Notes under the pieces: generated by a model
What the model saw: the letters and a program-made list of their open reading frames with translations, nothing else
Databases searched by the model: none
Told to the model about the DNA's origin: nothing
Shown here: positions 23,987-56,337 of the stretch, piece by piece
Layout: each line of letters opens with the position of its first letter
How positions within the stretch are numbered: the first letter of the stretch is position 1
DNA from: Tulasnella sp. 424
Lineage: Eukaryota > Basidiomycota > Agaricomycetes > Cantharellales > Tulasnellaceae
DNA: 64,000 bases
Assembly (NCBI GenBank): GCA_019633425.1
Contig: WSUB01000024.1
Coordinates: 287,856-351,855 of the forward strand
Reading direction: 5' to 3'
Position numbers and translations under genes: made by a program

Positions 23987-24233
23987 TGACGTCGATATTG
24001 AGAAAAAAAGGATAACGGTCGGCCAGGAGCGGGCTGCCCAAAACAAGCCGTGAGAATGTTGAGAAAGTGGCAACTTTTACGTACTGGACTCGAACCACGC
24101 CAACCTGCCAACCTCGCTTCCGTACCTTGTGTAAGTCAGATATTGTGCGCGTAGATGGTTTGCGCTTATAACCTTTATGCAACTGTAAAGCTGTGATCTG
24201 GTTGCTTTCGGTCATACATCTCCAGTTTGAAAG

Positions 24234-25951
24234 ATGGCGTCAAATTCAGCGAACACCCTTTCACAATGGTTCCCGGAGGCACAAAGAGCTCGGATGGAGC
24301 AATCTATCAGGCGTATCTTTCGCGACGAACTCTCTATGGACAGAAATTTCAGGTCCGTGTCTTCCGCAAATTCTCGCGATCTATGGCCACCTTACGCTGC
24401 GATTCCAGAGGCCCGTCGACTGATGATCCGAGGGGACAGATTGAGGTCTTCGACAAATTATTGTCGGTGCTCAGTACCTGTCGGAACAGACTGGTTCCCA
24501 TAAACTGTTTACCCCAGGACATCATGGGCCAAATCTTCTCTATCATCCTCAAACTGGAAAGCATCGAAGACTTGGAATGGCCTGTTGACCGGGACGATGA
24601 TGTTAGCATTGTCGAACAGCGGGAACGGCTTCGCTTGGTCTCACGGAGCTGGAACTCGTTCATCCTCTCAACACCAGGCTTTTGGAGCACCTTGGATATC
24701 CGCGCACCCAATTCCGTGCTATCTAAAGGAGTCGAGCGGGCTCAGCAGCGGGAGCTCTGCTTAGTGCTCGAACCCAGATCCTTCAAACTAGACCATCCTG
24801 AGCGTCTTACGAGGCTCCTCTCCCCACACTACCCTCGAATTCGGACCCTTCGATTAAGCGACCAAGAAATCACCAGTGCGTTTCTGAAAATCCCACTCCC
24901 CACGCTGTGTACGCTTGAAATACGCCTGCGAAATGTCGATATGCCTTGGCCCATCATATCCCAGGATCAATTCCCCCGCCTGAACGCCTTGGCTCTCACC
25001 GACTGCCCCCTCATATCAAGCCGTACCCCCCTAAACACGTTACGGATCCTTCATCTCGACCAAGCACCCGACGGATTAGACGAAATTTTGGGTTTCTTAC
25101 AGGGCTGCCCCAATCTTGAGGAACTAAATATCTTACCCCTGGCTGACTTGCCATGGACCATCAACCAGACATTTCCAGCAGTTCAGCTACATAACTTACG
25201 ACGACTAGAAATGCACAGCTTTCACGCTTCTTCATTACCATGCTTTTTTCAGAAAGCTCGGATTCCGAATATCAAGCAAATTGCGATATGGATTTGGAGG
25301 ATTCGTCCCTGGAGCGTATCTCAGACTCTCCCCGTAGCCAGGACTCTTCAAGAAAGCCTCGACACCTTGCAACTGTCGGGTTCAGGCTCGCGCATAGTGG
25401 AGTTGTTCATCTCTAGTAGTGCCGTTTCTTGCGTCACGGCAGACGGTCTCTCGGTTTCCGTTAAACTGGCCCACGAACACGGCTGCAGAGAGGTGGCCAG
25501 GTATTTCTTGGGCCGCCTTGATCCGAAGATGCTTTGCGTGACCATACATCTTCAAGATCAAGGTGAGAGTAGTTGGGTGGAACAGATGCTTGGTCTAAGG
25601 AATGTAGTTGAGTTGCGACTACAAGGGGGTACCCTCAACAGCACGAGGATTCTGGTGGATTACCTGGCACTGTTCAACAAGGAGACCGTAGCGGAGGAGG
25701 CGGAAGATAGACCCGACTTGGAGTTATCGACGAATGTGACGTTACCGTGGCATTCACTACAGACCCTCGTCTTCGAGGCGGTCGAGGTTGACCTCCCGCA
25801 GCTCCTTCGAATGGCGACAACCAGGGTGAACAATCGTCAGGATGCACCCTCACGGCTCCAGCGGGTCACGTTGATTAACTGCAGCACTGGGAATTCGCCT
25901 GATCTCTCATCGAAGTTCCACGCTGTAGGCGTCGATCTCCAGCTGCAGTAG
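24234..25951 (+). CDS. F-box protein, cluster 1 copy 2 (intact)
   Basis: Two exons (24234-24352 and 24409-25951; 56-nt intron) encode a protein of about 550 residues. It begins MASNSANTLSQWFPEAQRAR. The F-box is at roughly residues 75-130 (LVPINCLPQDIMGQIFSIIL…RERLRLVSRSWNSFILSTPG), followed by irregular leucine-rich repeats (for example FPRLNALALTDCPLISSRTP) and the end …VGVDLQLQ. F-box proteins bind Skp1 and choose substrates for SCF ubiquitin ligases; the target is unknown. It is a tandem duplicate of copy 1 (starts 2448 bp apart) together with the promoter. The intron must be spliced, because its two flanking exons are in different frames. Confidence 0.85.
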
Positions 25952-27044
25952 GTTAATTCATTTGATGTGCGGTAGCTAGTTGCATTCGATGGACTTCTCT
26001 GTAGTAGCAACGAACTTTTCGTAGGCTTATAGACCGAACATAATAACCCTTGCTGATTAATCGAAATTTCGGTTCAGCGTGATCTTTGGTTTGGGGCTTG
26101 CCAGGAAATAACAGTCCACGTGCGTGCTGGATGGCTTTCGGTAATATCCAAAGGTCCCATTCGGGTTTTACCGCCGGGCCCCTTCCATCGGACCTGTGCC
26201 TTGTATCGGGATAATGCTTCGGACACATGGTAGGACGTTGATTGAGGTGACATTGACAAGAGGCGAGGACGCCCTATTAATATATACAAAGTTGGATCGG
26301 CCACGAGCCAAAAAGAGCCGTGCGAATGTTGAAGTTGCACTAGAACAACAACTACAGCACAATCAAACCCTTAGCTAATAATCGATAACGCCGCTTGCGC
26401 GGTATTCCCATAGCCTGCGGACGGCTCGACTTTTCTTGCTTTACAAGCCCTTTTTGATAGACAAACACAATATAGTAATTCATGCCTACATCGTCTCGCT
26501 TGTCGCATATACAGAAACGGGACAGTACAAGTCGAACAAAAAAGTAAAAGAAAGCTCCTGACTTTATGTACAGTGTAGTGTACAGGTAATGACAAAAATG
26601 CGCGTGCGAATACGACCGCGTTTCTACAAGCTGTGCGGTGTTTGGAGTGAATTGAAGTGGGAACAAATAGGGGCAGCGCGTGTAAAAATAGAGTTGGGAT
26701 TTAGAGGTCGACGAGGACCAAACACAAGACAAAAAAGCAGCGAAGACGGGGAGACAAGAGCGAAGTAGAAAGAAAAGACACAAAGAGCAAGAGAAGTACA
26801 GAAAGAAAAGAGGAACGCAGCAATAGAGAGTAGCGGAAGGACAAAGCGAGAGGTGGGAAAAGAACGTGGGAATCGGTGCAACAATCCTGCGCGGAGTACC
26901 CTAGCCTGTAGAGTGAAAATAGAGGCTATGGGAACTTTTTCCCCCGCCCATTTTGTAAGCCGGTTTCATACGGTTAAACATATCCTACGCGTGTAATTTC
27001 TAATCGAGATTTGGCGGCTTCTAGTCCACCTCCGGTCCAAAAGG
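25952..27044. other. intergenic region after F-box copy 2
   Basis: The first ~430 bp repeat the 3' flank of copy 1. From about 26390 the plus strand becomes purine-rich (pyrimidine-rich on the minus strand), including a G/A-rich stretch at 26700-26870; no coding meaning is evident. The last part is the promoter of F-box copy 3 and shows no DHODH relic. Confidence 0.5.
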
Positions 27045-28749
27045 ATGGCGTCTGGTCCGGCGAACGGTCCTTCCCCATGGTTATCGGATGAACAAAGAGC
27101 TCGAATGGAGCAATCTATTGGGTACATCCTTCACTCTGAAATTTCAAAGGAAGGGGATCCGAGGTTCGAGTCTTCAACCAATTCCATTCACTAGATGACC
27201 ATCTTACACCATCCCTTGCAGAGACCTTTCGGTCGATGATCCAAAGAGACAGATCGAGGTCTTCGATAAACTGTCGTTGGTGCTCAACGCCTGTCGGAAC
27301 AGACGGGTTCCCATAAATCATTTGCCCCAAGACGTCATGCACCACATATTTTCGATTGTGCTTCAGCTGGAAGACATGCACAACCTCGAACTTCCCAACC
27401 CTTACCCGACTTACCTCGTTACTTTTATCGACCAGCGAAAGCGGCTTCGACTGGTCTCGCGGACTTGGAACTCGTTCGTCGTCTCAACGCCAAGCTTCTG
27501 GAGCCTCGTGGATATGCTAGCCCCTGATCTCGAAGTGTTACACGCAAGAATAGAGCGAGCCGGACAGCGAGAGCTCTGCGTAACGCATCGGTCGGGTCTC
27601 TTCACCGAAAAATACTGCGAGCATCTCGCTCTGTTCCTCACCCCGCACCTCCATCGTGTCCGGACCCTTCGACTAGGCAACGAAGGAGTCGCAGCCGCCC
27701 TCCTGAAAAACCCATTCCCCACACTACGCGCCCTTGAATTGCGTCTGAATGGCCACTGGCAGACGGAGTCGTTACCTACAATAACCCAAGACTACTTCCC
27801 CCAGCTTCACACCTTGCAGCTCTCGGGTTGCTTCATTCCACGAAACACTACACCTCTCAACACGTTGCGAATCCTTCGTCTTCATCACATCCTTCAGGAA
27901 GAAGTGGTCGAAATCTTGGCTTTATTGGCCCAATGTTCCTACCTCGAGGAACTGGCAATCTTGTCTCAGAATCAAAGTCCATGGATGGGCCTTCAGTCAA
28001 CAGCACTCCGCCTAGACAACCTGCGGCGACTAGAAGTCCGAGATCTCGATGTGCTGTCCCTCCCATGTCTTTTTCGTTACGCCAAAATCCCGAACTTCAA
28101 AGAAGTCATCATAGCGTTTCCGCTCGCACCCGTCCCCAACATAGGAGCTGCCCTTCTACAATGCCTCGACGAATTGCAGGTTTTGAATTCAAGCACCGAC
28201 TCAGTAGAAATTTCTATGTCCGACGATATCGTTACTTGTGTCATGGAGGATGGTCGATCGGTGGAGGTCACCCCCGCCGCACCTCAATCTGCCTTCTCCG
28301 AGGAGTGCGCAAATCGTTTCTTGGAACACCTGCAGCCGAGCGCGCTTCGGATAACAGTAGAGCTTCAACATCAAGGCATAATTAGATGGATACACCAATC
28401 ATTTGACAGGAGAAATGTCGTTGAACTCAGGGCACGGCGCGGAATCCTCAGAGAGAGCAGAGCGCTGGTCGATGGACTCGCGATTTTCGGTGACGGTGAG
28501 GAGGATACCGAGGAGAGCTTTGATTTGGAGTTACCGCTCCCGTTGCCTTCGTTGCAGACCCTAATCTTCGAGGATAGCGACATTGATGTTCCACATCTCT
28601 TACGGATGGTGTCGAACCGGGCTACTCACCCCCAGGCTACAGCTGCCACCCGAATCAAACAAATTACGTTGAGCAGCTGTAGCACTAGAAACGCTCCTGA
28701 TCTCTCATCAAGGTTCCGCGATCTAGGCGTCAACCTCACCCTGCGGTAG
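27045..28749 (+). CDS. F-box protein, cluster 1 copy 3 (diverged)
   Basis: Same architecture as copies 1 and 2: a 119-nt exon 1 (27045-27163), a 58-nt intron, then a long exon to 28749. F-box: RRVPINHLPQDVMHHIFSIV…KRLRLVSRTWNSFVVSTPSF. Leucine-rich segments follow (FPTLRALELRLNG, LNTLRILRLHHIL), ending DLSSRFRDLGVNLTLR. It is clearly more diverged from copies 1 and 2 than they are from each other, so it is an older duplicate. The conserved exon 1 length and phase-2 intron support the start. Confidence 0.85.
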
Positions 28750-31350: not shown

Positions 31351-33211
31351 ATGGCTACGCCCCAGTCTGTTTCTCAACCTTCCCCAGGTACGGGCACTGC
31401 CATATCAAGAGAAACGAACGCACAATTGATCCGTGTTTCAATTCAAGGAGAAGCCAAAGTTTCTGTGGCTGCAACGATTCGAGGCGAGGTCGACACATTC
31501 TTGGGAGAGCTTTTTAACAAACTCAATCAGTGCGCGCATCAGATTCGCTGTGCTGGGCTTTGCTGACATGAGTAACATCAGTCTCGTTTCCGATAAGAGC
31601 CCTTCCAAAAAAGCCGACATCGAACTCCATCTTTGTGAAATCGTTGAATCGGCCGTCCGTCGAAGACGGAACGATCGCGTACCTTTCGCCCAACTGCCTG
31701 TGGATGTCGTCCATTGCGTCTTTGCAGAAGCCCTGGACTTAGAGAGGATCTATGACGTGGAATTCCCCATTCGCGCCATAGGGTTGCACAAGAAGCATCT
31801 GTTGAGGATGCGCCTCGTCTCAGTGGCGTGGAACGAGTTTCTCGTTTCGTCCCCCAGATACTGGCCGGCAATCAACGTCTGGGCACACCCACGACTAGTG
31901 GAACTGAGTATCAAGCGAGCTCGTGATACACCATTGATTCTTTTCACTGGGCTCAGAGCACCGCGGGACGTGCGTCGACCGGGGGTGGTTAAGAGCAAAT
32001 TGGGGAAACATACCAGCCAAGTCCGAGTGATCCGCTCGGACTACACGGATACCTGGGAGCTCCTCAAGTACCTCATCGAGAAAGGAATGCCGATGCTACA
32101 AGCCATGGAGCTAGACTCAGATTTCTTCATGCGCAGAGATGGGGAACCGGCTTCGACCGTCGCCGAACTTCCGCAACTCCGCGATCTCGTCGCGTGGGGT
32201 TGGGAACCTCCCGCGGGGGCAGTGTGGCTTAGAAACCTGCGCACACTCAGCATCAGCGAAATGCAAAATCTCGGCAGGAACACGCTCTGGATGCTCGCCG
32301 CCTGCGACAATCTCCGAAGACTCGGCATTCTGACACCGCGCAACTCCGGGAGGCTGGCTTCCGAGGAGGAGTTATCTGATTTTGCGGCCACAATAACGCT
32401 TCCAAGCCTCCAGGAGTTAGACATGCACTTATGGGACGAATGGGCCTTCGGACAAATTGTTCGAAGGCTTAGTACGCCACTACTCACTCGTGGACTACTT
32501 CGCTTCGACCGCTGGCACCCTCCAGCCTCCCAGCCCAACGCTAGGATGATCGAAGATCTTGGTCACTTCATATCTCCTAGAAAGGGGGTACAAAGCACAG
32601 TCAAGGAGACGCTCATCGAGATTCATTGGGGCGGGGGAGAGGCTCCACTTTCGTGGTTCTCGTTTAAGGCTGGTTGCCGCGTTATCGGGTTGCCACAACC
32701 GGAGCAGGGAGTTCAAGAGGACCGGTACGTCGATACCATTGCCAATATGCAAGCGCTGCTGGGCAATCCTCCGCTATCGGTCACAGTAATCGACCACACG
32801 AGTACCGACACGTTCGTACGCAAGATGGCAGACATTGGCGTGAAGACAATTCGGATCAAAGGGCCGGAAACAGATCTGGGAGCGGCGTTGGCATCGATAG
32901 GCAGTCGCCGACCGAACCTCCCATCCGGAAAGGTTACCGACACCGACTGGCCGTTCGAATCGCTGACGGAACTCATCGTGGAGGACATTACTTTGAATAT
33001 CGGCCGGTTGGAAACGCTTGTTGGAGTCCGTCAACTATACCTACGATCGACGTCCAAAGTGTGGCTGCAACGCATCTCATTGATCAATTGTCGACTCTTT
33101 GGGATATCACTCGAAATTTGTGTCAAGAGACTTTCTAAATTGGGGGTAGCCCTTGTAGACGTGGAATGTAGGCGAAGTGTGCGTCCCAAAAAACAGCAGG
33201 GCGGAAAGTAG
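31351..33211 (+). CDS. F-box protein related to the 43-53 kb array
   Basis: Exon 1 31351-31529 encodes MATPQSVSQPSPG… and AATIRGEVDTFLGELFNKLN. A 52-nt intron (31530-31581, branch-like TGCTGAC) joins to LVSDKSPSKKADIELHLCEI. The F-box is VPFAQLPVDVVHCVFAEALD…LLRMRLVSVAWNEFLVSSPR. A leucine-rich region follows, ending SVRPKKQQGGK. The ATG at 31568 that a naive call would use lies inside the intron. The N-terminal helix exon parallels that of the array genes (ALIATLQPQADSLLEKIYEF), which supports the model. Probably the closest single-copy relative of the array family in this window. Confidence 0.8.
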
Positions 33212-39444: not shown

Positions 39445-41312
39445 ATGGAACTCACCCCCGAATCTGCCACGGAACCAACCGCTCCTCCAGGTTGTCGTTC
39501 CGAGCCACCATACCAGCAGCCAGATACTCGCCTCCGCATTGTTCTCTCGTATTGGTTGATCTTCTTCCTTGGCTTACCATTATGGTGGCGGACGACAAGC
39601 ATTGAACGGTTGGCGTTGCCACGCGCCAAAGTGGAACAGATATCAAACTTGAAAGACGATGTAGGACTTTTTTTTCTGAATTTCATGGTGACTTTATATC
39701 TAATGTACCATTTTATTCCGCAGTTTCGTCTACCGGTTTCGTTAAATCTGACGTCCGAAGTTCCCGGATTGAATGTCCCGGACCTCATACCAAAGCTGCA
39801 AGCGGCATTCACGAACACAGATGCCATCAGCAAAACTTTGAAACTGTCATTTATTGATGGCTCTCCGAATGCCGTGGTTTATCAGGATTGCGGATCTGAA
39901 GGAACCAGCATTTGTCCAGTTCTCAACGATCACTACTCTATCAAAATATTACCCGCCTCTGCGACTTCTGAATACGCCATAGATGATCTCTCACTTCAAG
40001 TGCCATTCGACCATACTTCATCCAGCTCTGTGCAAGATCTCTCGAATAGCTTGACTAAATTGTTATTGCCACCAGCAACGGACGCTTATAGACTGCGCGT
40101 CGCTCAATACGCACCGCGGTACCGTTTGGCATTTAGTCTCCTCAACGAAGATGCTAGCTTGGGAGGTGGAGCTACGGGGTGGGAGATCGAAGAGGCTCTG
40201 GCTCGTGAGTCCGAAGCATCCTTGGAGGGATGGTGGGACTGACGCTGTTGTGCATAAGGCCACATCGAACCCACGTTGCGTCAACTGAGCACATTGCACA
40301 ACTTTACCATTGAAAGCCAAGTTCAATATCACGCGCCGCTTGCTTTCGAGCCCCAAACGGTGGAGGGCGGCTTTGTGGTTAGTGACGATGATTTGAAGGT
40401 CTTCGTCAACTCGGCCGAATGGACTCTCGGTAAGATTCCCAAAGGGTACCGAAAAACTCATACTCACTGGTTCACTTAGCCTCAAGCTCTTCCAATGATC
40501 CCGTACTGCATTTCGTCTTGTTCATTCCGGCGGCGAATAGGAGTCCCCTTCACGTTTTGGACTCACACGGTAAGTAAAATGGCACAAGTAGTGGAACTTT
40601 CCGCTAAATGGGCGTTTTTCTAGGCAAGACGTCACCTTCCAACGCGTTCGTGCTCCCGCAGTGGGGAGGCATCGTTGTTTACAATCCCCATTCTGCCACC
40701 CCACTGGCTGAGCACTTAGATGTTCAAGCTCTTCATTCCACCTTCCGTCACTTTGACACGCAGCTCCGGTCCCTCCTTGGGGTTCCTCCATTACCGGTCA
40801 ACCTGCGACAACGGTCATCAAATAGCATCACGCGTTGGCAGCTGGACTCCCTCCTCCGCTATAGGGCCCGAGAGAATGTCCGGGAAAGCATTGATACCCT
40901 CTCGAGTATCCTCAAACTTGTGGACCGGATCAAAGGCATGCCAGTTGGGGAAACCGTTCGGTCTGACTTCAACGCAGCATTAGATGCGTTGAACGACGTG
41001 AGTGCAGTGAAGATAGCGTGTCTCTGTTTGATATTGACGACACCCCGAATTCCTACTCACCAGGTTTACCTCACGTACGATTATGCATCGTCCAAGGCCA
41101 TTCTCTCAGCTTCCGCGAGAGCCCTAGTCAGCTCCTCGAAAGCCTTCTTTAATCCCAACATGGTGGCAATGCTTTACTTCCCAGTCGAACACAAATACGC
41201 AGTCTACACGCCTCTCTTTGCACCAATTGCCGTTCCGTTGTTGGTATCCCTCATACGAGAATTGCGAGACTTCGCGAAGAGAAGGTACGGCAGTAAAGTC
41301 AAGGCGGAATGA
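39445..41312 (+). CDS. GPI17: GPI transamidase subunit PIG-S/Gpi17
   Basis: ER membrane subunit of the complex that attaches GPI anchors to proteins. An N-terminal transmembrane helix follows a Pro-rich start (RLRIVLSYWLIFFLGLPLWW, then RTTSIERLALPRA, a PIG-S hallmark). The lumenal domain includes FRLPVSLNLTSE, HIEPTLRQLSTLHNFTIESQ, LHFVLFIPAANRSPLHVLDS and FVLPQWGGIVVYNP (the QWGGI motif). A C-terminal transmembrane helix follows (YTPLFAPIAVPLLVSLIREL). At least five introns; intron 39661-39723 is 63 nt with no stop, so its retention would keep the frame. Start 39445 (MELTPESA) is the first Met after the divergent promoter. Confidence 0.92.
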
Positions 41313-41817
41313 ACCTTTTGGTACGTCAGTTGGCTCCAGAAACGTCACCTACCGGCTCATAAACTGTTCAGGACGTTCAATCTATACATATATATCTCAG
41401 TCGGCATTTTTATGTTCAACCTCTCGTTCCGAAGGCTGTGCCTTTCCAACTTTACCAAGGACTGTCATATTGATGCAAGGCTCCCCTCGACCCGCTACCG
41501 GAAAAGCCCAGCAGTGTCTGCCCACCGATAACTCGTGTTCTTGATTAATCTCCTGGATTGCACGCAATATCCATCCCATTGTGTAGAAACCCGTGTGACT
41601 ATAAAGCAAACACCGTGAGCCACAAAAGCCTCTCTGAATTGTCCCCCTTCACGCAGTCCTCTGCCACCGTGCCAACTCACTTAGTCATTAGGCCTGCTAC
41701 CCCCTCCTACAGGTATCAATCTTGGTCTTAAAACGATATTCTCCTCTAACTCACTTTCGAAGTTCGATAACAGAGATAGTCCAGTAACCCCACCGTTCAC
41801 CCAGTATATTACACAAG
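41313..41817. other. intergenic region between PIG-S and gene X
   Basis: 3' flank of PIG-S followed by the promoter and 5' UTR of gene X. No gene recognised. Confidence 0.45.
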
Positions 41818-43026
41818 ATGCAGGGAGAGGCGACGTCAGCGGCAGCGACGGATCAACTTCCTCCCTTCCCACCTCACTTGTTCGCGCTTATTCTACAATA
41901 CCTCCTCCCGCCGACCCCCCCAATACCATCTCACCTCCTGTCCAACTCTCTCCTTCAGCGCCATTATTTCCTGGACATCAATCCCTCCGATGACCCGGAC
42001 CTCTATTTCCTTTTTCCAGCTCCTGGAAAGAAGTCATCCGAGGTAGTCCGCGAACTAGAGCGAATGGCAAGCGGTGGAAATGCTCCTCCCAACGCTGAAA
42101 AGCCGGATGTGGAGTATGTGGCGCAGGAAGGCTCCGCTGTCCGGGCTCGCGTGCGTCTGGGCGAGAATCTTCTGGTTATCTTTTCTCTGGATGTTAGGAA
42201 TCCCAACGTCCAGGGAGCATTGGCGACTGAAGCCTCACAGGATGCTGGACCCGAATGGCGATACCATGATGTAATTTGGAAGTCTGACGCCCTTCTAGCT
42301 GGGCACTCAGATATTCAAGCCGCCATAAGCTCTGCTTCAAATTTGTTGAATGCTACCGAAGGCGCTGACCAGGCGGGCGAGCAGAATGGAGAAGAAGAGG
42401 ATGACAGTCCCGAAGCACGACAAAAGCGCGCCGAGGAGTTCTGGAGCGGGTGGTCTAGTCCTTCGTCCCTCGACAACTCACCTGCAGTGGAGCGGAAGCC
42501 TTTGTCTTCCGAAGATGCAGAGGCTTCCTACTTTGCTCGATACGGCGAAGTGATCCCTGTCATTCCCGATTCCAGCCACGCGTCTACGATAGCGAGCTCC
42601 ACCCGCCCCTCCACCGCAGGCGATTCACTCACCGGAAGCCGGATTTTAGGAATGATGGCCAGCTCTCAAATTCCGGTTATCCCGACAGAAGGGTACAATA
42701 CCCCCACCACTATGTCATCACACAAGTTAGCCATTAGTGCATTCGAGCCCGCTTCTGCGGTAATTACAGGTGCAGAGCACGAGACCGGGAAAACGCCCAC
42801 CATATCCCGCCGAACACCTCTCCTCGGAGACTCCGCTATCCTGGTGCCTAAAGAGGAGTCGAAGGATGGGAGTACAGACACGTTGGATGCTGGAGTTGCG
42901 GATGTTGTTCAAGGGGCCTGGAAATTGTGGAATGCTGGTCGTCGGGAGGCTGATCAGGGGAGCTTGGCGAGCCGGAAGGAAGAATTTATCCGTCTGATCG
43001 AAAGGACTGTTGGATCATTCTCGTAG
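41818..43026 (+). CDS. unknown protein X, donor of the array's tail fragments
   Basis: A single long reading frame of 402 codons. The N terminus has a hydrophobic, Pro-rich segment (PPFPPHLFALILQYLLPPTP) and LQRHYFLDINPSDDPDLYFL. The middle is acidic and low in complexity (NGEEEDDSPEARQKRAEEFW). The C-terminal part is ISRRTPLLGDSAILVPKEES and VADVVQGAWKLWNAGRR. No domain recognised. It looks intact and single-copy in its N-terminal two-thirds, whereas its last ~90 codons (from about 42744) recur three times, degenerate, inside the F-box array at 45.4, 48.0 and 50.6 kb. It is therefore the left-hand ancestral neighbour of the amplified unit. Confidence 0.7.
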   Translation: MQGEATSAAATDQLPPFPPHLFALILQYLLPPTPPIPSHLLSNSLLQRHYFLDINPSDDPDLYFLFPAPGKKSSEVVRELERMASGGNAPPNAEKPDVEYVAQEGSAVRARVRLGENLLVIFSLDVRNPNVQGALATEASQDAGPEWRYHDVIWKSDALLAGHSDIQAAISSASNLLNATEGADQAGEQNGEEEDDSPEARQKRAEEFWSGWSSPSSLDNSPAVERKPLSSEDAEASYFARYGEVIPVIPDSSHASTIASSTRPSTAGDSLTGSRILGMMASSQIPVIPTEGYNTPTTMSSHKLAISAFEPASAVITGAEHETGKTPTISRRTPLLGDSAILVPKEESKDGSTDTLDAGVADVVQGAWKLWNAGRREADQGSLASRKEEFIRLIERTVGSFS

Positions 43027-43304
43027 CCATGAACTAGATCCGCAGTGATGCGCACTCTGTTAGCCCCCTTGTTCAGCGTAGGAATGAAATCGGATGCACG
43101 GTTAACCTCGAGCTGCGGGACGTCCGTCGATTCCATTTGCAGTGCAAAGGGCTTGGTACCTGAGCCGAGGAAGTATCAAGACAAAGCGGGGACTAAGCAG
43201 ATTTCATCTGAAACATTACTATTCAAATTAATTCTACAAAGACTGGACGCAGCCAGGCTTCTAATAAACAAGAAGGGACCTCATTTCAGCATCACGACAG
43301 CCCT

Positions 43305-45138
43305 CTATTTACCCCGAAAGAAGGTACACCCGGTCCCTATGAGGACAACACCCAACACCGCAAGCTCCGTGGTAATTTTTTCGAGTGACGTGTCAATTAA
43401 ACGACAGTTTACTAGTGATATTTTCCTAAGGCATGGCTGGGATATTGCTCGCAAAAGTCGTCGGCGTGTCGCGACCATCCCAATCAGCTGCTTAGCGTTG
43501 ATCCTGGCATCTTCTATACTGAGTTCCTGAAGCGACGCGAAGGGTAGTTGGGGTTTATCGCGTATCCCGGAAGGGTGACTGCTCCCTATCAACCACAACA
43601 CATCATAGAAATCCTTGGGGGCCTTGACCAGCACTTTCCTGACATCCACGTCCGCCAAGCGACGAAACATGAAATCCGTCTTCTGGTAATTAATGAGTTT
43701 TATTGTCAATGGAGGGTCATTGAGCCTAGTTTGAAAAGCTTTGATCAGTTTGGTAAACCCGGCTGCTTGATCGCTGGACGTAGGCCCTCCAAGATCGACA
43801 GATCGGACGCCTGCCGAATATATGATTCGCGTTGTAGCCCACGTGGATTGGTCCGGCTTCCGGTGAATATTGATAACTGCTCCGTCCGGAATTGGTCTGG
43901 CCGCGGTGTTCGGGAGGATGAAGTTGGAGAGGGTGTCAATGACTTCCGCATCTGGATATGACGGATATTCAATCCGAAGCGACCCCTTGGATTGGGGAGG
44001 AAATGCCAGTCGTTTCAAAAGAAACTTGGGCGATTCTACTCCTTTGAAATCCAACGTCAACTCCTGGAGGCGAGGCAGGGTGGCAGTGGGTACCGGGGCT
44101 GTGGATCCGGACGGCCAACCGTCGTGTTCGTGAAAGACTAGTGTCAGAAGATTGATGCATTTCGCTAAAAGGTGGATCGTTCTTGCTCCAAGGCGGGGCG
44201 AGCCGCCCAGAACGAGTGTTTGAAGCTTGCAAAGTTGAGAAGACGCCTCATTGGGCCGCCAATCTACTGCTTTGACTTGATGTAGGTGTTCTAGCCCCGC
44301 CGGTAGTTGTTTAATCGTCTCGGTTCCCCAACGTGATTGTGGCCAGGTAAGCTCCAAAGTTTCAAGGATAGGCGGACGACGAGAGAGTAAGGTCTCGCAA
44401 AACTGGGAAGCTTCCGGACTATTTGTGCGAATGCTCCGTACTTGGGCAATTTGGTTCTGTAGGGTTTGTCGATGAAGATGGTTACATCTCCACATTTCAC
44501 GGCCGGCTGTGCCAGTGGGTAGCAGGGCATACAAACACAGAGGTACGTGCTGGGCACGCTCCATAGTCCTGATGATTACTTCTGATGAAACTCCAATGTT
44601 TATCGCACTCCAGTACCTCGGAGAGGCAAGGATAAACTCATTCCATTGTGATGACACGCATCTCAACCGAAAGAGCTGCTTCCGGTGGGCTTCAACACGA
44701 TCCAAAGGGTAATCCGCGTCGTGAATACGATCCAAGTCGAGGACTTCAGCGAAAATGCAGTGAATGATGTCGATCGTAACTCGGTTAATAGCCGCTAGGC
44801 CGTTTCTCCGCCGTCGAATGGCCACTTCGATGGCCTCGTAAGTGGTGATTTGGTTCGCGCTCATGTTCGCTAACGTCGAATTTGGAAATAGACTGGAAGA
44901 ATCAGGAAGATTCACTGAGCCAAATAATGTATACGAAGGAGAGACAATCTATCACCTTAAGGAGAACTCGTAGATTTTCTCAAGTAAGCTGTCAGCTTGA
45001 GGCTGAAGAGTCGCAATGAGGGCGCCAAAGGTGATCTCTACATGGTCAGATTTCGCGTTGGTGGAAAGCGTCTCGGTCTCAAACAAGCTCAATCAGCCTA
45101 CTTTGAGAGGTAGCTGTGCCGCCGTCTGCAGACTCCAT
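43305..45138 (-). CDS. F-box protein, array copy A (intact)
   Basis: Three exons: a short first exon from 45138 (MESADGGTATSQ), a helix exon ITFGALIATLQPQADSLLEK, then a long exon of about 525 codons beginning SLFPNSTLANMSANQITTYE. The F-box is GLAAINRVTIDIIHCIFAEV…QLFRLRCVSSQWNEFILASP. A leucine-rich region follows (LCKLQTLVLGG, TATLPRLQELTLDF, LPFASLQELSIED), ending GCTFFRGK. Predicted SCF substrate adaptor; target unknown. The two upstream exons are inferred from splice sites that are shared by all four array copies. It lies convergent with gene X. Confidence 0.83.
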
Positions 45139-45368
45139 TATTGAAATGTATGGTCCTAATGCAATTGCGGTTCCAACGTGCGGGGGGTGGGAGTGGGGGG
45201 ATGCACCGAGGGTGGCCGAATGGGACAATGGTGCCTCGTGATCACGATTTAGGCGCTACCAATAATTTCACTCTCATCGACTCTCTTTACACTCGACCAC
45301 CTTTCCCCTTCCTCAACTCCCACCTCTCGCCAAAATCGTCCAAGCAGATTATCAAAGTATAAGTCAAA
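45139..45368. promoter_or_regulatory. duplicated divergent F-box/DAHP synthase promoter, copy 1
   Basis: Copy of the promoter that lies between F-box D and the real DAHP synthase. Contains the G-rich tract at 45182-45200, the GCGCTACCAATAATTTCA-type block and CGACTC where the synthase copy has TGACTC. Now placed in front of the chimeric ORF at 45369. Confidence 0.65.
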
Positions 45369-45656
45369 ATGAGCATCACAGTGTGCCCGCTTCTACGGTA
45401 TTTACAGGTGCAGAGAACGAGATCGGGAAACCTATCCCGCGGAACACCCCTCCTCGAAGACTCCGCTGTCCTGGTGCCGAGAGAGGAGCTGAAGGATGAT
45501 GATACAGACACGTTGGACGCTGGAGTAGCTGATGTTATTCGAGGGGCCTGGAAGTTGTGGAATGGGTCGTCCGACGACCGACCAGGGGAGCAATTGGCGA
45601 GCGGGAAGGGAGAATTTGTCCGGCTGATCGAAGGGACTCTCGTATCCACGAACTAG
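45369..45656 (+). CDS. chimeric ORF: DAHP synthase start fused to gene X tail
   Basis: An open frame of 95 codons. Codons 1-5 (MSITV) come from DAHP synthase. Codons after the junction come from X, first in a shifted frame (CPLLRYLQVQRTRSGN); then, thanks to a small deletion, in the parental frame (TPLLEDSAVLVPREEL, AGVADVIRGAWKLWN) to the stop. Sister fusions at 47994 and 50628 stop after ten codons (TAA); here the TAA reads TAT, so the frame stays open. It sits behind a copy of the synthase promoter and could be expressed, but whether it makes a protein is unknown. It may equally be an accidental ORF. Confidence 0.45.
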   Translation: MSITVCPLLRYLQVQRTRSGNLSRGTPLLEDSAVLVPREELKDDDTDTLDAGVADVIRGAWKLWNGSSDDRPGEQLASGKGEFVRLIEGTLVSTN

Positions 45657-45914
45657 ATCCGGAATGATGCACACCGTGTTACCCATGCTTGTGCAGCTTA
45701 GAGATGAAGGCGGGTGCACGGTTGACCTCAAGCTGAGGGACATTTGCCGATTCCATGTGCAATGCATGGGGAGTTTTGTACCTGAGCTGAGGAAATCTTA
45801 AGACTAGGTGGGGAATAAGCAATTTTTATATGATTATTGCTATTGTAACGAATTATACAAAGACCAGACGCAGCTAGGCTTTGAGTAAACAAGAGTGTGA
45901 CTCGGTTTCCAGTA

Positions 45915-47766
45915 TCACGATAGTGATCTAGTTTGTTTCCCAGAGAAGACGGTACACCCGGTCCCCCCAAGAACAACGCCCAATTCCCCAAGCCCCTTGG
46001 CAGCCTGCTTAAGTGACGCCCCAGTGAGATGACACTTTACTAGTGATATTTTTTCTATGCACGGCCCGGAAATCACTCCCAAATGGCGTTTGCGTCTCGC
46101 GACCATTCCCGTCAATTGCTGAGCGTTGATGTTGGTGTCTTCTATGATAAGTTCCTGCAGCGACCCAAAAGATAATTTAGGTTTAGCGGCTGTCCCAGAA
46201 GGACTACCATTCTCCATCAACCTCAACACTCCATTAATGTCGGTCGGGGACTTGATCAACACTTTCCTGGCATCCACATCCGCTAAGTAACGCAATATCC
46301 CGTCCGTACCCCGGCAATTATGGAGTATAATTGTTAGTGGGGGGCGATTGAGCCGAGTTTGAAAAGCTGTGATCATTTTGACAAACCGGACCGCTTGCTC
46401 GCCAGGCGTCGGCCCACCAAGATCGACCGAACGGAAGCCTGCCGAATAGATAATTCGCGGGTGTGGGTCCGGATGGCAATGGACATCGAGAACTGCCATG
46501 TTCAGGACCGGTTGGGTTGCAGTGCTCGGGAGGATGAAGTTGCAGAGGCTCTCCATGACTTCCGCCTCTGGATGCTGTGGGGCAACCTGCTCAATCCGAA
46601 CCGACCCTTTGGATCCGGGAGGGAAGGTCAAGCGTTTAATAAGGAACTTGAATGACTCTATCCCCCTGAAATCGGTTACCAACTCCTGGAGGCGAGGGAG
46701 TGTGACGGCAGGTAGGAGCTCCGTGGGTCCAGACACCCGACCATCGTTCCGAGTCTCGTGAAATGTGATGAATAATTTCTGGAGATTGGTGCACTCGGCT
46801 AAGAGATGAATCGTCTTTGCACTATGGCCGGCCCATCCGCGTAGGACAAGGGTTTGAAGCTTGCACAATTGGGAAGCCGCCGCATTGGGCCGCCAATCTA
46901 CTGCCTTTATTTGACGCAGGCGTTCTAGTCCCGTCGGCAGTGGTACGATAATATCGGCTCCCCAAGATGATTGCGGCCAGGTAGTAAGATCCAACGTTTC
47001 GAGGAGAGACGGACCATGAGAGAGTAGGGTCTTGAAAAACTTCGAAGCTTCCGGACTGTTGGTGCGAATGCTCCGGACTTGGTCGATTTGGTTCTGGAGA
47101 GTATTTCGATGAGGATGATTAACGTCCCATATTTTACGTTCGGCCGGGCTGGTGGGCAGCAGAGCATACAAGCATAGAGGTGCCTGCTGGGCCCGCTTCA
47201 TCGTCCTGACGATTATTTCTTCGGAAACTCCAAGGTTTATCGCACTCCAGTACCTCGAGGAGACGAGACAAAATTCATTCCATGACACCGACACGCATCG
47301 CAAACGAAAGAGGTGCTTCCGGTGGGCTTCAACGCGATCCAGAGGGAAATCGGCGTCGTGGATTCGATCCAAGTCGAGGGCTTCAGCAAAAATGCAGTGG
47401 ACGATGTCGATAGGAAGTCGGTTGATAGCTACTAGGCTGTTTCTCCGCCGCCGGACAGCCACCTCGATGGCTTCGTAAGTGGCAATTTGGTTCGCGATTT
47501 CCTCCGTCGAGGTTGAATTTGGAAATAGACTGGAAGACTTATTCAGCAATGTAGTACATATGAAGGAGAAAGACTGTATCACCCTGAGGAGGACTGGTAG
47601 ATCCTCTCGAGCAAGATGTCAACCTGAGGCTGAAGAGTCGTAATGAGGGTGCCAACGGTGATCACTACATGGGCAGATTTCGCGTTGGTGGAGAAGCGTC
47701 TCAGTCTCGAACAAGCGAGATCGGCTTACCTTGAGAGGCAGCTGTGCCGCTGCCTGCGGACTCCAT
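45915..47766 (-). CDS. F-box protein, array copy B (intact)
   Basis: Same three-exon plan as copy A, first exon from 47766 (MESAGSGTAASQ). F-box: SLVAINRLPIDIVHCIFAEA…HLFRLRCVSVSWNEFCLVSS. The leucine-rich region includes LCKLQTLVLRGWAGHSAKTI and LSFGSLQELIIEDTNINAQQ. The C terminus GCTVFSGKQTRSLS is a few residues longer than in copies A and D. No lesion seen in the long exon. Located between X-tail fragments 1 and 2. Confidence 0.82.
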
Positions 47767-47993
47767 ATATTGAGATGTATGGTCCTTATGCGATTACGGC
47801 TCGAACGTGCGGGGGTGGGGGGATGCACCAAGGGTTGGCCGAATGGGAAAATAGTGCCTCACGATTTATGTAAGTAGGCGCTACCAATAAATTCACTCGC
47901 ATCGACTCTTTTACACTCGAACACCTTTCCCCTTCCTCAACTCCCACCTCTCGCAAAATTTATCCAAGCAGATAATCAAAGTGTAAGTCAAAA

Positions 47994-48297
47994 ATGAGCG
48001 TCACAGTGAGCCCGCTTCTGCGGTAATTACAGGTGCAGAGAACGAGATTGGGAAACCTATCCCGCGGAACACCCCTCCTCGAAGACTCCGCTGTCCTGGT
48101 ACCGAGAGAGGAGCTGAAGGATGGGGGTACAGACACATTGGACGCCGGAGTAGCTGATGTCATTCGAGGGGCCTGGAAATTGTGGAATGCAGGTCGTTGG
48201 ACGACCGACGTCGACCAGCTGGGAGCTTGGCTAGCAGGAAAGAAGAATTTGTCCGGCTGATCGAAAGGGCTGTCAGGTCATTCTCGTGGCCATGAAC
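47994..48297 (+). pseudogene. X-tail fragment 2 behind a duplicated synthase start
   Basis: Reads ATG AGC GTC ACA GTG AGC CCG CTT CTG CGG TAA: five synthase codons, then X sequence in the wrong frame, and a stop. Downstream the X frame (TPLLEDSAVLVPREEL, GVADVIRGAWKLWNAGR) is recognisable and then decays. A non-coding remnant of the tandem duplication. Confidence 0.8.
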
Positions 48298-48564
48298 TAT
48301 ATCCGGAATGATCACACCGTATACATATGCTTGTGCAGCTGTGGGATGAAGGCGGGTGCACGGTTGACCTCAAGCTGAGGGACGTTTGATTTCATGTGCA
48401 AAGCAGGGAGGTTTGTACCTGAGCTGAGGAAGTCTTAAGACCAGGCGGGGACTAAGCAATTATCATCTGATTATTGCTATTCTAACGAATCCTACAAAGA
48501 CCAAACGTAGCAAGGCTTTTAGCAAACAAAAGTGTGACCCGATTTCCGGCATCACGATAACACT

Positions 48565-50390
48565 CTATTTTTTCCAATTGAAGGTACACTCGGTCTCCTC
48601 AAGAACAACACCCGATTCCCTAAGCCCTTCAGTAGCTAGCCTAAGTGACTTCCTAGTTAGACGACACTTTACTAGTGATATCTTTGTTATGCATGGTCCG
48701 GAAATCACTCCCAAATGGCGTTTGCGTCTCGCGACCAGTGTCGTCAATTGCTCAGCGATGATGGAGGTGTCTTCTATGATAAGTTCCTGCAGCGACCCAA
48801 AAGATAATTTGGGTTTATCGGCTTTCTTATAAGGACTACCATTCTCCATCAACCTCAACACGGCATTAAAGTGGATCGGGGACTTGACCAATACTTTCTT
48901 GGCATCCACGTCCGCCAAGTAACGCAATATCGCGTCCGAAACCCGGGAATTATTGAGTATGATTGTTAGTGGAGGGTGATCGAGCCGAGTTTGAAAAGCT
49001 GTGATCGTTTTGACAAACTGAATCGCTTGCTCGTCGGACGTCAGCCAACCAAGATCGACCGACCGGACGCCTGCTGAATAGACAATTCGCGGCGGGAGTG
49101 GCTTCATTTTGCCATGAACATTGAGAACTGTCATGTTCAGGATCGGTGGGGTCGCAGTGCTCGGGAGGATGAAGTTGCAGAGGCCCTCAAAGACTTCTGC
49201 CTCTGGATCCCGTGCGACTACCCGCTCACCCCGAACCGACCCTTTGCATGAGGGAGGGAAGATCAGGCGTTGTATAAGGAGTGGCTCTATTCCCTTGAAG
49301 TCCATTACCAACTCCTGGAGGCGAGGGAGTGTGACGGTGGGTAGGAGGTCCGTGGGTCCAGATACCGAACCATCGCTCTCCTGAAATGTGATGAATAATT
49401 TCTGGAGATTGGTGCACTCCGCTAAGAGGTGAATCGTCTTTGCACTATGGCCAGGGCATCCGCCTAGAACAAGGGTTTGAAGCTTGCACAACTGGGAAGC
49501 CGCCGCAAAGGGTCGCCAATCTACTGCCTTTATTTGATGTAGGCGTTCTAGTCCCGTCGGCAGTGGTACGATAATCTCGGCTCCCCCAGATGATTGCGGC
49601 CAGGTAAGGTCCAAGGTTTCGAGGAGAGACAGACGTTGAGAGAGTAGGGTCTTGAAAAACTTCGAAGCTTCCCGACTGTCTGTGCGAATGCTTCGGACTT
49701 GGAGGATTTGGTTCTGGAGGGTTTGTCGATGAGGTTGATTAAGTTTCCACATTTTACGGTCGGCTGACTTCGTGGGCTGCAGAGCATACAAGCACAGAGG
49801 TACATGCTGGGCCCGCTTGATCGTCCTGACGATTATTTCTTGGGAGACTCCAAGGTTTATCGCACTCCAGTATCTCGGGGAGACGAGAATAACCTCATTC
49901 CACGACGCCGACACGCATCGCAAACGAAAGAGGTGCTTCCGGTGGTCTTCAACGCGATGCAGAGGGAAATCGACGTCGTGGATTCGATCCAAGTCGAGGG
50001 CTTCAGCAAAAATGCAGTGAATGATGTCGAGGGAAAGTCGGTTGATGGCCACTAGGCTGTTTCTCCGCGGCCGAACGGCCACCTCGATGGCTTCGTAAAT
50101 GGCAATTTGGTTCGCGGTCCTCTCCGTTGAGGTTGAATTTGGAAATAGACTGGAAGACTCGTTCAGCAATGTAGTACATATGAAGGAGAAAGACTGTATT
50201 ACCTTGAGGAGGACTGGTAGATCTTTTCGACCAAGATGTCATCCTGAGGCTGAAGAGTCGTAATGAGGGCGCCAACGGTGATCACTACATGGGCAGATTT
50301 CGCGTTGGCGGAGAAGCGTCTCAGTCTCAAACAAAGAAGCGGGATCGGCTTACTTTGAGAGGCAGCTGTGCCGCTGCTTTCGGACTCCAT
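48565..50390 (-). CDS. F-box protein, array copy C (intact)
   Basis: First exon from 50390 (MESESSGTAASQ), helix exon MITVGALITTLQPQDDILVE, then the long exon SSLFPNSTSTERTANQIAIY. F-box: SLVAINRLSLDIIHCIFAEA…HLFRLRCVSASWNEVILVSP. Leucine-rich part as in copy B, ending EETECTFNWKK. Compared with B it has small in-frame differences only. Predicted SCF adaptor, target unknown. Confidence 0.82.
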
Positions 50391-50434
50391 GTATTGAAAT
50401 GTATGGTCCTTATGGGATTGCGGCTCGAACGTGC

Positions 50435-50454
50435 GGGGGGTGGGGGGTGGGGGG
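50435..50454 (+). other. G-rich tract, candidate G-quadruplex
   Basis: Three runs of six G separated by single T (GGGGGGTGGGGGGTGGGGGG) inside the divergent promoter copy 3. Shorter versions lie at the same place in the other promoter copies (45182-45200, near 47811-47821), and a weak one lies before the true DAHP synthase. Confidence 0.6.
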
Positions 50455-50627
50455 ATGCACCACTGGTCGCAGAATGGGACAATGGTCACGATTTATGTAA
50501 GTCGGCGCCACCAATAATTTCACTCTCATTGACTCTTTTACACTCGACCACCTTTCCCCTTCCTCAACTCCCACCGGTACCTCTCGCAAAAATCGTCCAA
50601 ACAGATAATCAAAGTATATATGTCAAA

Positions 50628-50925
50628 ATGAGCATCACAGTGAGCTCGCTTCCGCGATAATTACAGGTGCAGAGAACGGGTTCGGGAAAACTATCCCGCC
50701 GAACACCCCTCCTCGAAGACTCCGCTATCTTGGTGCTGAGAGAGGAGCTGAAGGATGGGGTGCAGACACGTTAGACCCTGGAGTAGCTGATGTCATTCGA
50801 GGGCCTGGAAATCGTGGAATACAGGTCACCAAAGGACCGACCAGGGGGACCTGGCGAGCAGGAAGGGAGAATTTGTCCGGCCGATCGAAGGACTGTCGGG
50901 CCATTCTCGTAGCCATGAACTAGAT
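50628..50925 (+). pseudogene. X-tail fragment 3 behind a duplicated synthase start
   Basis: ATGAGCATCACAGTGAGCTC then a stop after ten codons; downstream X-derived sequence (TPPRRLRYLGAERG frame versus parental TPLLEDSAILV) has several indels and no long frame. It is the most decayed of the three tail fragments. Confidence 0.78.
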
Positions 50926-51198
50926 CCGGAACGACGCACACCATGTTACCCATGCTTGCGCCGCTTAAGGATGAATGCGGATGCAAGGTTGACCCCAAGC
51001 CGAGGGACCTTTGCCGATATCATGTACAATGCAGGGACGTTTGTGCCTTAGCTGAGGAAGTCTGAAGACCAGGCGGGGACTAAGCAATTTCATCTGATTA
51101 TTGCTATTCTAACGAATACTACAAAGAGCAGACGCAGCTAGGCTTTTAGTAAACAAGGCTGTGACTCGATTTCCAGCATCACGATAGCGCTCGTTATA

Positions 51199-53011
51199 TT
51201 ATTTCCCCCAGATGGCACACCCGGTCTCCTCAAGAACAACGCCCAGTTCCCTAAGCCCTTTGGTAGCTTGCTTGAATGACGTCTTAGTTAGACGACACTC
51301 TACTAGCGATATTTTTTCTATGCACGGCCCGGAAATCATTCCCAAATGACGTTTGCGTCTCGCGACCATTCCCGTCAATTGTTGAGCGTTGATCCTGATG
51401 TATTCTATACTAAGTTCCTGCAGCGACCCAAAAGATAAGTTGGGTTTATCCGCCGTCCCAGAAGGGCTACTACTCCCCATCAACTTCAACACTTCATCGA
51501 TGTCGATCGGGGACTTGACCACCAGTTTCCTGACATCCAAGTCCGCCAAGTAACGCAATATCACGTCCGTACTGTGGCAATTATTGAGTATGATTGTTAG
51601 TGGAGGGTGGTTGAGCCGAGTTTGAAAAGCTGTGATCATATTGACAAACCGGGCCGCTTGATCGTCATACATCGGGCCACCAAGATCGACCGACCGGGCG
51701 CATGCCGAATAGATAATTCGCGGGAGTGGGCCTAGTATGCGATAAACATTGAGAACCGCCATGTTCAGGATCGGTGGGGTCGCAGTGCTCGGGAGGATGA
51801 AGTTGCAGAGGCCCTCAAAGACTTCTGCCTCTGGATGCCGTGCGGCTACCCGCTCAACCCGAACCGACCCTTTGCACGAGGGAGGGAAGGTCAGGCGTTG
51901 TATAAGGAGCTCGAATGGCTCTATTCCATTGAAATCCATTACCAGCTCCTGGAGGTGAGGGAGTGTGACGATGGGTAGGAGGTCCGTGGGCCCGGATACC
52001 AAACCACTGTGTTGGTGAAATGTGATGGATAATGTCTGGAGATTGACGCAGGCCGCTAAGAGGTGAATCGTCTCCGCACTATGGCCAGGCCATCCGCCTA
52101 GAAGAAGGGCTTGAAGCTTGCACAACTGGGAAGCCGCCGCAATGGGCCGCCAATCTACTGCCTTTATTTGATGTAGACGTTCTAGTTCCGTCGGCAGTGT
52201 TATGGTAGTTTCGGCTCCCCGAGATGTTCGCGGACAGGTAGTAAGATCCAAGGTTTCGAGGAGAGACGGACCATAAGAGAGTAGGGTCTTGAAAACCTCC
52301 GAAGCTTCCCGACTGTTTGTGCGAATGCTCCGGACTTGTCGATTTGGTTCCGTAGAGTTTTTCGATTAAGGTCCCACATTTTACGTTCGGCTGGGCCAGT
52401 GGGCTGCAGAGCATACAAGCACAGAGGTACATGCTGGGCCCGCTTGATCGTCCTGACGATTATTTCTTGGGAGACTCCAAGGTTTATCGCACCCCAGTAC
52501 CTCGGGGAGACGAGAATAACCTCATTCCACGATGCCGACACGCATCGCAAACGAAAGAGGTGCTCCCGGTGGGCTTCAAAGCGATCCGGAGGGAAATCGA
52601 CGTCGTGGATTCGATCCAAGTCGAGAACTTCACCAAAAATGCAGTGAATGATGTCGACGGGAAGTTGGTTGATAGCCACTAGGCTGTTTCTCCGCCGCCG
52701 AACGGCCACCTCGATGGCTTCGTAAGTGGCGATTTGGTTCGCGGTCCTCTCCGTTGAGGTTGAATTTGGAAACAGACTGGAAGACTTATTCAGCAACATG
52801 GAATATGGGGAGGAGAAAGACTGTATCACCTTGAGGAGGACTGGTAGATCTTCTCGAGCAAGATGTTAACCTGAGGCTGCAGAGTCGTAATGAGGGCGCC
52901 AACAGTAATACCTACACGGGCGGATGTCGCGTTGGTGGATAAGCGTCTCAGTCTAGAACAAGCTAGAGACTTACTTTGAGAGGTAGCTGTGTCACTACCT
53001 GTAGACTTCAT
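51199..53011 (-). pseudogene. F-box protein, array copy D, single-base frameshift
   Basis: The unit nearest to DAHP synthase. First exon from 53011 (MKSTGSDTATSQ), F-box SLVAINQLPVDIIHCIFGEV…HLFRLRCVSASWNEVILVSP intact. At about 52337 one base is missing relative to copy B (CGGACTTGTCG versus CGGACTTGGTCG on the plus strand). The frame after NQID therefore leaves QVRSIRTN and reads SGAFAQTV instead; the rest is open in another frame to 51199 (…EETGCAIWGK). A 15-bp in-frame loss is also seen just upstream (RKTLRNQ). Pseudogene, sequencing error or truncated F-box-only product. Confidence 0.8.
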
Positions 53012-53430
53012 ATTGAAATGTATGGTTCTTATGCGATTGCGGTTTGAACGTGTGGGGAGTGGGGTAGTGTTGTCGAGCGCGAGCGAGAGCGAGACGAGTA
53101 GAATTTAATCGTTGGCCGCACCATCGAATCACGAGAAAACCACACCCGAAAGATCCGGCCGAGGCTGGTAGAAGTCTTGCATTGGCTGTGATCTGTCAAA
53201 ACGACCAGGGATACCGTCTAGAGTGGTGAGCGGCATAAGTGGGGAGCGGCGGCATAAGTGGGAGGGTGCACCAAGGGTCGGCCGAACATATGGGAAAACG
53301 GTGCCTCGCGATTTAGGCGCTTCCAATAATTTCATCCTCATTGACTCTTTTCCACTCGACCATCCTCTCCTCCCCCAGCTCCCGCCTCGCTCAAAAATCG
53401 TCCAAAGGGATTATCAAAGTATAAGTCAAA
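53012..53430. promoter_or_regulatory. divergent promoter of F-box D and DAHP synthase
   Basis: 419 bp, against about 230 bp in the three derived copies, because of an extra ~195-bp segment at roughly 53066-53262. That segment contains a purine-rich GCGAGCGAGAGCGAGACGAG stretch and a near-direct repeat of GCGGCATAAGTGGG. TGACTC at 53342-53347 matches the core of Gcn4/Cpc1-type amino-acid-starvation elements, which would fit an aromatic amino-acid gene; this is inference. The same TGACTC exists in promoter copy 3 (50530-50535). Confidence 0.6.
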
Positions 53431-55099
<1,669 letters not shown>

Positions 55100-55516
55100 T
55101 TGAACTACAAGTCGAAATCCGTTGAGAGGATCTCTCGGAAGATAGAATCTCATCGATGTGTAATAGTTGTATAAAGTTGTACTTTGTTTGAACGCTGGAT
55201 CAGCGCCGTATCATGAACGTGTTGCGTCGCAAGCGGGAGTGCTGCCAATCCGCCATACGCGACGAAACCTCGAATTTCTGAACCTTATAACAATGTCCGA
55301 CGATTTAGGCATTATGAGGTCGAGAATAGATAAAGTATCAGGCCGGAAGCGATTGCAATGGTCGTCCGACAAGCTCGGGGTGCTCCCAAGGAGTTAAGAC
55401 GATGAGAGGCTTATTGCATAGCGGTAAAACGGTAATGGATGGAATACAGACACATACAATGTAAAAAACATCGAGTAACAAATCTCCCACATCGAAAACA
55501 CCTCAGATGACGATGT
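55100..55516. other. convergent 3' intergenic region
   Basis: Between DAHP synthase and eS19. Short ORFs only; probably 3' UTRs. Confidence 0.45.
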
Positions 55517-56337
55517 TCACCATGAAGGCTCGTCACCAGCACCACCAGCACCAGCACCACCAGCACCTGCCTCCAGGTTGACAAACGGATCGCTGGCGTA
55601 TCTCTTGTTGATTCTTGACTCAAGAGCCTCGACGCTCTCGAAGGCACCGTGGTCGTGTGGGTCATTAATGTGCTTGTATTTCTTCTGCGAACCGTACTCT
55701 CCTCCCCTCCTTCCACCGCTTGCAGCTGCCCTTCGAGCACCACGTCCTTGACCAGTAGCGCTGCCGAACTCCTTTCCAGCCTTGAAACGAATCTTCTGCA
55801 TAAGAGCGGTGGAGATGCGATCGAGGTCTCTTTGACCTTCCTGGCTGATTTTGCGACCACCATCGGGGTGAGGCTCGAGGACACCAATCTTCTCTAGCGA
55901 CTGAACGATCTTGCGCTGCACAGAGCCGGAGGCGGCGAAATGGTGGCGCGGGCGGACACCACGGCGCTTGGAAACACCGTGCACCTTGAGAAGGTCGGCG
56001 GTACCGGTGCGGCCGCGAATATAGGCGTTCCGAGCGACGGACGCTATGTGTTGATAGTAAGTCAGCCATGCTAATCGAAGTGGGTGACGACTGTAAGACC
56101 AACTCCGCACCTGCACGGATGTAGAACCAGTCGGGGTCATAAGGAGCGAGCTCCTTGCTAACACCGGTCTTAACGATGTCGACCCAGTTAGGGATCTCGA
56201 GCTTGCCCGAGCGCTTCAAGTGCGAGGCATAAGCTTTGATGAATCGTTCCGCACTACAGCAGAAGAATGAGCGTTTGCCACTTCAAATAGAGGTCGTAAT
56301 TTCTTGAAACCAACCTGACGTCTTTGGGGCTGGGCAT
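55517..56337 (-). CDS. RPS19: small-subunit ribosomal protein eS19 with a C-terminal extension
   Basis: Exons give [80 protein letters not shown] and [20 protein letters not shown], ending RDLDRIS. This is a complete eS19, which normally ends within about ten residues of DRI. Here the frame continues for 97 residues ([76 protein letters not shown]). The extension is basic and Gly-rich, then acidic. No splice site removes it without losing the stop. Two introns in the eS19 part. Confidence 0.88.

Follow-up and report, generated by a model that had tools for sequence, protein, structure and literature searches.

A four-unit tandem array of a fast-evolving F-box/LRR-like gene beside a DAHP synthase gene in Tulasnella

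Introduction

Among the closest described systems are the F-box gene clusters of plants. The plant FBX superfamily is large, clustered and subject to fast turnover, and tandem duplication is a main route of its growth in many species (Hua et al. 2011; PMC3030570). Its lineage-specific clusters contain tandem duplicates, copies under relaxed constraint and, among them, pseudogenes, and the array described here resembles them in these respects. It differs in that a basidiomycete subfamily is involved and in that scraps of the flanking genes give the breakpoints at base level. Replication-based segmental duplications in yeast offer a second comparison. There, only half of the events are put down to recombination between long homologies (PMC2518615), the other joints carrying 5-10 bp of microhomology or microsatellites. 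Direct tandem duplication is common to both systems, but the Tulasnella joint lacks evident microhomology and its event is old.

No paper on this locus, or on a fungal array of DAHP synthase and F-box sequences, was found among the titles and abstract openings covered, which were part of the search results. A fungal tandem array with conserved junctions is known from industrial Penicillium, where the penicillin gene cluster is amplified. That array consists of near-identical, recent copies of a whole biosynthetic cluster, whereas the Tulasnella array consists of copies of one divergent gene.

The locus lies in a window of 64,000 nucleotides, positions 287856-351855 of contig C157, in a 46.8-Mb draft genome (448 contigs). 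The host belongs to the Tulasnellaceae (Basidiomycota, Cantharellales), and Tulasnella species are mycorrhizal partners of orchids. In our view the locus is, with a probability of about 0.9, a tandem duplication array of the ordinary sort, built from a fast-evolving F-box/LRR-like gene by one founding duplication and later exchange between units. It is well preserved but represents ordinary gene-family growth, with no new mechanism, and its remaining interest is a readable history with a built-in measure of decay. The locus preserves, in clean form, a natural history of the growth of a large fungal gene family. Its founding is marked by a single joint, and beside each copy the scraps of two neighbouring genes provide an internal yardstick of decay. 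With these features and a relative that apparently has a single unit, one locus allows us to measure how F-box copies arise, are retained and die.

Results and discussion

Four head-to-tail units of 2.6-2.8 kb apiece occupy window positions 42745-53444. Each consists of the tail of a gene that we call X, an F-box-like gene, the 5' flank of DAHP synthase and 14 synthase coding bases. Unit boundaries were set by alignment and by the letters at the junctions. U1 (42745..45382) holds the real X tail, F-box copy 1 and the first orphan synthase promoter with its 14 coding bases. U2 (45383..48007) and U3 (48008..50641) follow, and the right end of U4 (50642..53444) consists of the opening 14 coding bases of the real synthase. 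Self-comparison of 41001-56000 gave off-diagonals in bins 2620-2640, 5240-5260, 7860-7880 and 8060, the last because the fourth unit is longer. Direct repeats at 2.62-2.64 kb spacing run across 42.7-53.4 kb, and identity between units is 69-94%, segment by segment. Tandem Repeats Finder, whose maximum period is 500, reported no repeat in the array. The array proposed in the initial annotation is confirmed by the off-diagonals at ~2.62 kb, and exon-1 starts at 45138, 47766, 50390 and 53011 reproduce its F-box spacings of 2628, 2624 and 2621 bp. Two of its details need amending. An upstream region of ~230 bp describes the three orphan copies (228-238 bp from F-box start to ATG) but not the real synthase (~420 bp), and the last unit reaches 53444 rather than 53430, the rest of the unit anatomy being as described. 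A block of about 190 bp in the real promoter (53067..53256 in the alignment, ends approximate), containing GCGAG-like repeats, is missing from all three orphan copies; insertion in the real promoter and loss in the copies fit equally well.

The four adjacent units share their boundaries at three junctions, and the outer genes are intact while the inner copies are truncated, all three inner X copies being tails only. Gene X (41818..43026, plus strand) is an intact open reading frame of 402 aa in which no Pfam domain was found; its last 93 codons form the left end of U1. A PIG-S gene, seen as two PF10510 open reading frames, lies upstream of X at 39445-41312. The multi-exon DAHP synthase gene (53431..55099, plus strand) is stop-free when spliced with introns placed by eye and the last intron left out. 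It belongs to type I: the best-scoring six-frame stretch, which spans an intron, matches PF00793 with 73.6 bits (cut-off 25.5). The enzyme gene has indeed been left intact, but this is nothing special, since any tandem duplication spares the outermost flanks.

All four F-box-like genes lie on the minus strand. Copy 1 (43305..45138; FRC05_003736) has small 5' exons and an open main exon of 519 aa, and is 100% identical to P0001, the FRC05_003736 protein of Tulasnella sp. 425. Copy 2 (45915..47766; FRC05_003737) also has an open main exon, with a 5-base gap near its end that shifts the last residues and the stop. The FRC05_003737 protein (P0003), with its first exon at 47766, is 65% identical to copy 1 and, over residues 34-577, 99% identical to copy 2. 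The main exon is open in copy 3 (48565..50390), so that copies 1-3 contain no main-exon stop. In copy 4 (51199..53011) a non-triplet gap shifts the frame of the main exon; the part on each side is open, and the change from one frame to the other falls near the position of copy-1 residue 140.

Gap lengths point to retention of these frames. Triplet gaps make up 5/6, 4/4 and 4/5 of those in the whole F-box main exon for U1-U2, U1-U3 and U2-U3, against 0/15, 3/18 and 3/12 in the flanks (Fisher P = 0.0003, 0.005 and 0.10, the last not significant). The sole non-triplet exon gap among copies 1-3 is the 5-base one of copy 2, which falls within the last 15 bases of the exon and alters only the end of that copy. 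When those 15 bases are left out, all exon gaps are triplets, and for U2-U3 (P = 0.02) about 14 frame-breaking gaps would be expected at the flank rate and none is observed. Simulated neutral branches (0.08 changes per site, 503 codons) stayed stop-free in 3.2% of 5000 runs. The X-tail scraps act as an internal control, with flanks losing frame freely while three of the four F-box copies keep the main exon open. From these patterns we conclude that copies 1-3 apparently are, or until recently were, kept as proteins undergoing fast amino-acid change.

Both relaxed and diversifying selection would fit this conclusion. Pairs among U2-U4 have dS 0.13-0.20, dN 0.13 and dN/dS 0.68-1.01, and U1 against the other units gives dN/dS 0.37-0.47. 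It is possible, though we hold it only tentatively, that the copies are retained by diversifying selection on a C-terminal LRR-like part with changing recognition, beyond relaxed constraint. The retained frames of copies 1-3 and the high overall ratios of U2-U4 would suit this idea, as would a value of up to 1.31 in one block (codons 100-250, U3-U4) and lower values of 0.46-0.81 in the first 100 codons. However, dN/dS was calculated by block rather than by site and no block is clearly above 1, and the U3-U4 and U2-U4 values take in the decaying lineage of the broken copy 4.

The orphan promoters each point towards the 3' end of the F-box copy that follows, and at junction 1 the synthase start and the X tail form an open chimeric reading frame of 95 aa (45369..45656, plus strand). 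Short RNAs, chimeric or antisense, might be driven by the orphan promoters and regulate the copies that follow. We consider this unlikely. The chimeric frame is open only at junction 1 and stops at codon 11 in junctions 2 and 3, and dN 0.16 against dS 0.19 between the chimera's X tail and X gives no sign of constraint on the chimera in its sequence. The X 3' flank was copied as well, and with it perhaps the X terminator, and several indels separate the orphan promoters. A broader scheme would have unequal exchange reshuffle F-box/LRR copies under diversifying selection while the captured promoters, each facing the next copy, now drive such regulatory RNAs in every unit; it is decidedly improbable.

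The junctions bear on how the array was founded. The motif ATGAGC(A/G)TCACAGT occurs at 45369, 47994, 50628 and 53431, and at the first three sites the sequence immediately switches to that of X from base 42745. Junction 1 (45369..45382) carries the first 14 coding bases of the synthase and then X sequence, and the letters of junctions 2 (47994..48007) and 3 (50628..50641), likewise on the plus strand, show an identical joint. The X breakpoint is 42745, the first base of X codon 310, and the synthase breakpoint follows base 14, in codon 5, as previously noted for both genes. Base-level alignment of the four units thus finds one joint at all three inner junctions. No microhomology is evident there, since neither the next synthase bases nor the preceding X bases match those at the joint. 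A joint with ~3 bases of homology would be conceivable at an AGTG that lies a few bases upstream in X, given a later loss of 6 bases. The lack of clear microhomology fits more than one founding mechanism.

Because the joint is common to all three inner junctions, the three joints descend from one event, and the synthase promoter was therefore captured once, by a single founding tandem duplication. The initial annotation had the gene multiplying by repeatedly copying a shikimate-pathway promoter; this is not supported, as the promoter and the first codons were acquired in one capture and travelled with whole units as these recombined. No result here gives any sign that the promoter drove multiplication. 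Independent captures, with one joining event at the synthase start for each unit, would account for the three orphan promoter copies, but they are highly improbable. All three joints are identical to the base, an 8-base gap in the X tail is common to U2-U4, and it is very unlikely that separate events would have hit the same two bases with no homology evident. Genome searches with X found the gene and its three tails, and searches with the copy-1 upstream and promoter stretch found five pieces, all within the array, though diverged copies may escape such searches.

An assembly artefact, or separated haplotypes stacked in tandem, might be suspected in a draft of 448 contigs where another F-box cluster has an N run between identical 80-bp stretches, but is very improbable given the 69-94% segment identity and the absence of any N within 41001-56000, and the units, which differ by 6-31% per segment, share an ordered mosaic structure while copies 1 and 2 branch apart with a protein from elsewhere (P0002) on the copy-1 side.

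Under the preferred reading of one founding duplication followed by exchange, X and the F-box gene would originally have been convergent, and the F-box gene and DAHP synthase divergent. In one illegitimate event, base 14 of the synthase would have become linked to X at the start of codon 310, giving two units with both outer genes intact. Misaligned homologous units would then have recombined, by unequal crossing-over or replication-based template switching, into four mosaic units, with the X and synthase 5' scraps as passengers. Selection would have held three F-box copies in frame amid fast divergence while the fourth decayed.

The mosaicism itself is observed. By singleton counts (U1 and U4), U1 stands apart in the X tail with the 3' flank (63 and 33), in the F-box main exon (235 and 61) and in the F-box 5' part (36 and 22), and U4 stands apart in the promoter (3 and 18). 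The U1:U4 ratio of singleton sites accordingly changes from 36:22 in 44865-45174 to 3:18 in 45198-45374 (Fisher P = 0.0002), and none of 2000 shuffles equalled the best single switch point among the 376 U1/U4 singletons. The F-box 5' part and the promoter, as different parts of the unit, therefore have different trees. Such a switch along the unit is expected from an exchange that links the F-box 5' end of one unit with the promoter of a different unit. It would follow if U2 and U3 had the right founder's F-box gene together with the left founder's promoter, in other words if misaligned exchange had generated new units. The switch zone is broad, about 44985-45198, with no single crossover site pinned. 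A pinpoint crossover in a G-rich tract near 45175-45200 was dropped, as the optimum of the scan is 45029/45030, on a wide plateau.

Upstream of the main exon, in the F-box 5' part, U2 and U3 are the closest pair (K 0.067), and in the N-terminal third of the F-box gene the closest pair is U3 and U4 (K 0.084). The closest pairs thus differ along the F-box gene, so there were more exchanges than the simple scheme holds. The X-tail dS from U1 to U2, U3 and U4 is noisy at 0.19, 0.37 and 0.42, and its spread hints at further conversion. Compared with the F-box gene, X-tail dS is not far apart given about 65 sites for U1-U3 (0.37 vs 0.55) and U1-U4 (0.42 vs 0.52). It is lower for U1-U2 (0.19 vs 0.60), for which we have no explanation. 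A RIP-like burst of C-to-T change was considered and rejected, since derived C>T/G>A singletons on U2-U4 (27 at 308 CpG sites vs 87 at 995 other C/G sites) show no enrichment.

Relatives were sought with searches that scored only the candidates sharing most words. The array F-box profile matched 7 proteins at E up to 0.001 among 7,998 scored candidates, and gene X matched 6 (P0008-P0013) among 7,995; in both cases the matches are from Tulasnella or unnamed. In Tulasnella sp. 417, X and one F-box gene carry the consecutive locus tags FRC01_002046 and FRC01_002047, for each of which the longest contig given is 9,795 bases, and this species probably represents the single-unit state. Its neighbouring tags bear out the X and F-box half of the proposed ancestral order (X convergent with the F-box gene, which diverges from the synthase), but the synthase side was seen in no relative. 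A tree of 13 rows places this sp. 417 F-box protein outside the whole array, followed by (U1, P0002) against (U2,(U3,U4)), all of these forks being starred; P0002, which groups with U1, is 88% identical to copy 1. Read as species history, this tree would place the founding event after the split from sp. 417 and before that from the source of P0002. That source should therefore carry the array too; no other array copies from it were among the profile-search matches.

The array protein had been proposed to be an SCF adaptor. No Pfam F-box model reached its cut-off in the array proteins. Copy 1 matched PF00646 at E 0.04 (14.3 bits; cut-off 20.5), and part of copy 4 matched PF12937 at E 0.021 (15 bits; cut-off 24.3). 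The scan covered 7 proteins, namely 2 array proteins and 5 relatives, and in 4 of the relatives it gave no F-box match at E up to 1. Structure prediction for copy 1 gave a poor model (mean pLDDT 54.2) in which strand-helix repeats are better towards the C-terminus. Best fold matches of this poor model include the F-box/LRR proteins 4i6j_B (which we take to be FBXL3), COI1, SKP2, FBXL17, FBXL2 and Dia2, and unrelated LRR proteins (RanGAP, NLRPs) match at similar scores. A sequence search of solved structures gave 2 matches at E up to 1 (best 0.052), neither of them an F-box protein. The array gene is a plausible SCF adaptor, but the Pfam models stay below cut-off and the F-box/LRR resemblance comes from a poor model.

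The array protein belongs to a larger set in this genome. Copy 1 has at least 42 genome matches at E up to 0.001, with 83 of 207 candidates scored, and clusters lie on contigs C157, C392, C9 and C413. Direct DNA repeats of F-box units occur at four further places, namely window 21479-26364, C9, C392 and C413. PF12937 finds at least 150 F-box-like matches (150 of 1,020 candidates were scored and all matched), 88 of the 150 lying within 5 kb of another. None of these 150 scored out of 1,020 candidates is on C157, which is in line with the array F-box being a diverged kind.

The repeat at window 21479-26364 is a second head-to-tail F-box-like pair, with units of about 2.46 kb that are 80% identical, and two more F-box-like relatives lie near it at 27337-28749 and 31568-33211. 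Within the C392 cluster, the N run between two identical 80-bp stretches (L026 3193-3449) is likely a scaffold-gap artefact. PF00793 matches on C157, C22 and C65 probably represent three DAHP synthase loci, of which only that on C157 adjoins the array. Elsewhere in the window, an open reading frame at 7126-8178 resembles, by eye, a G-protein alpha subunit, carrying what we take to be the motif of that family.
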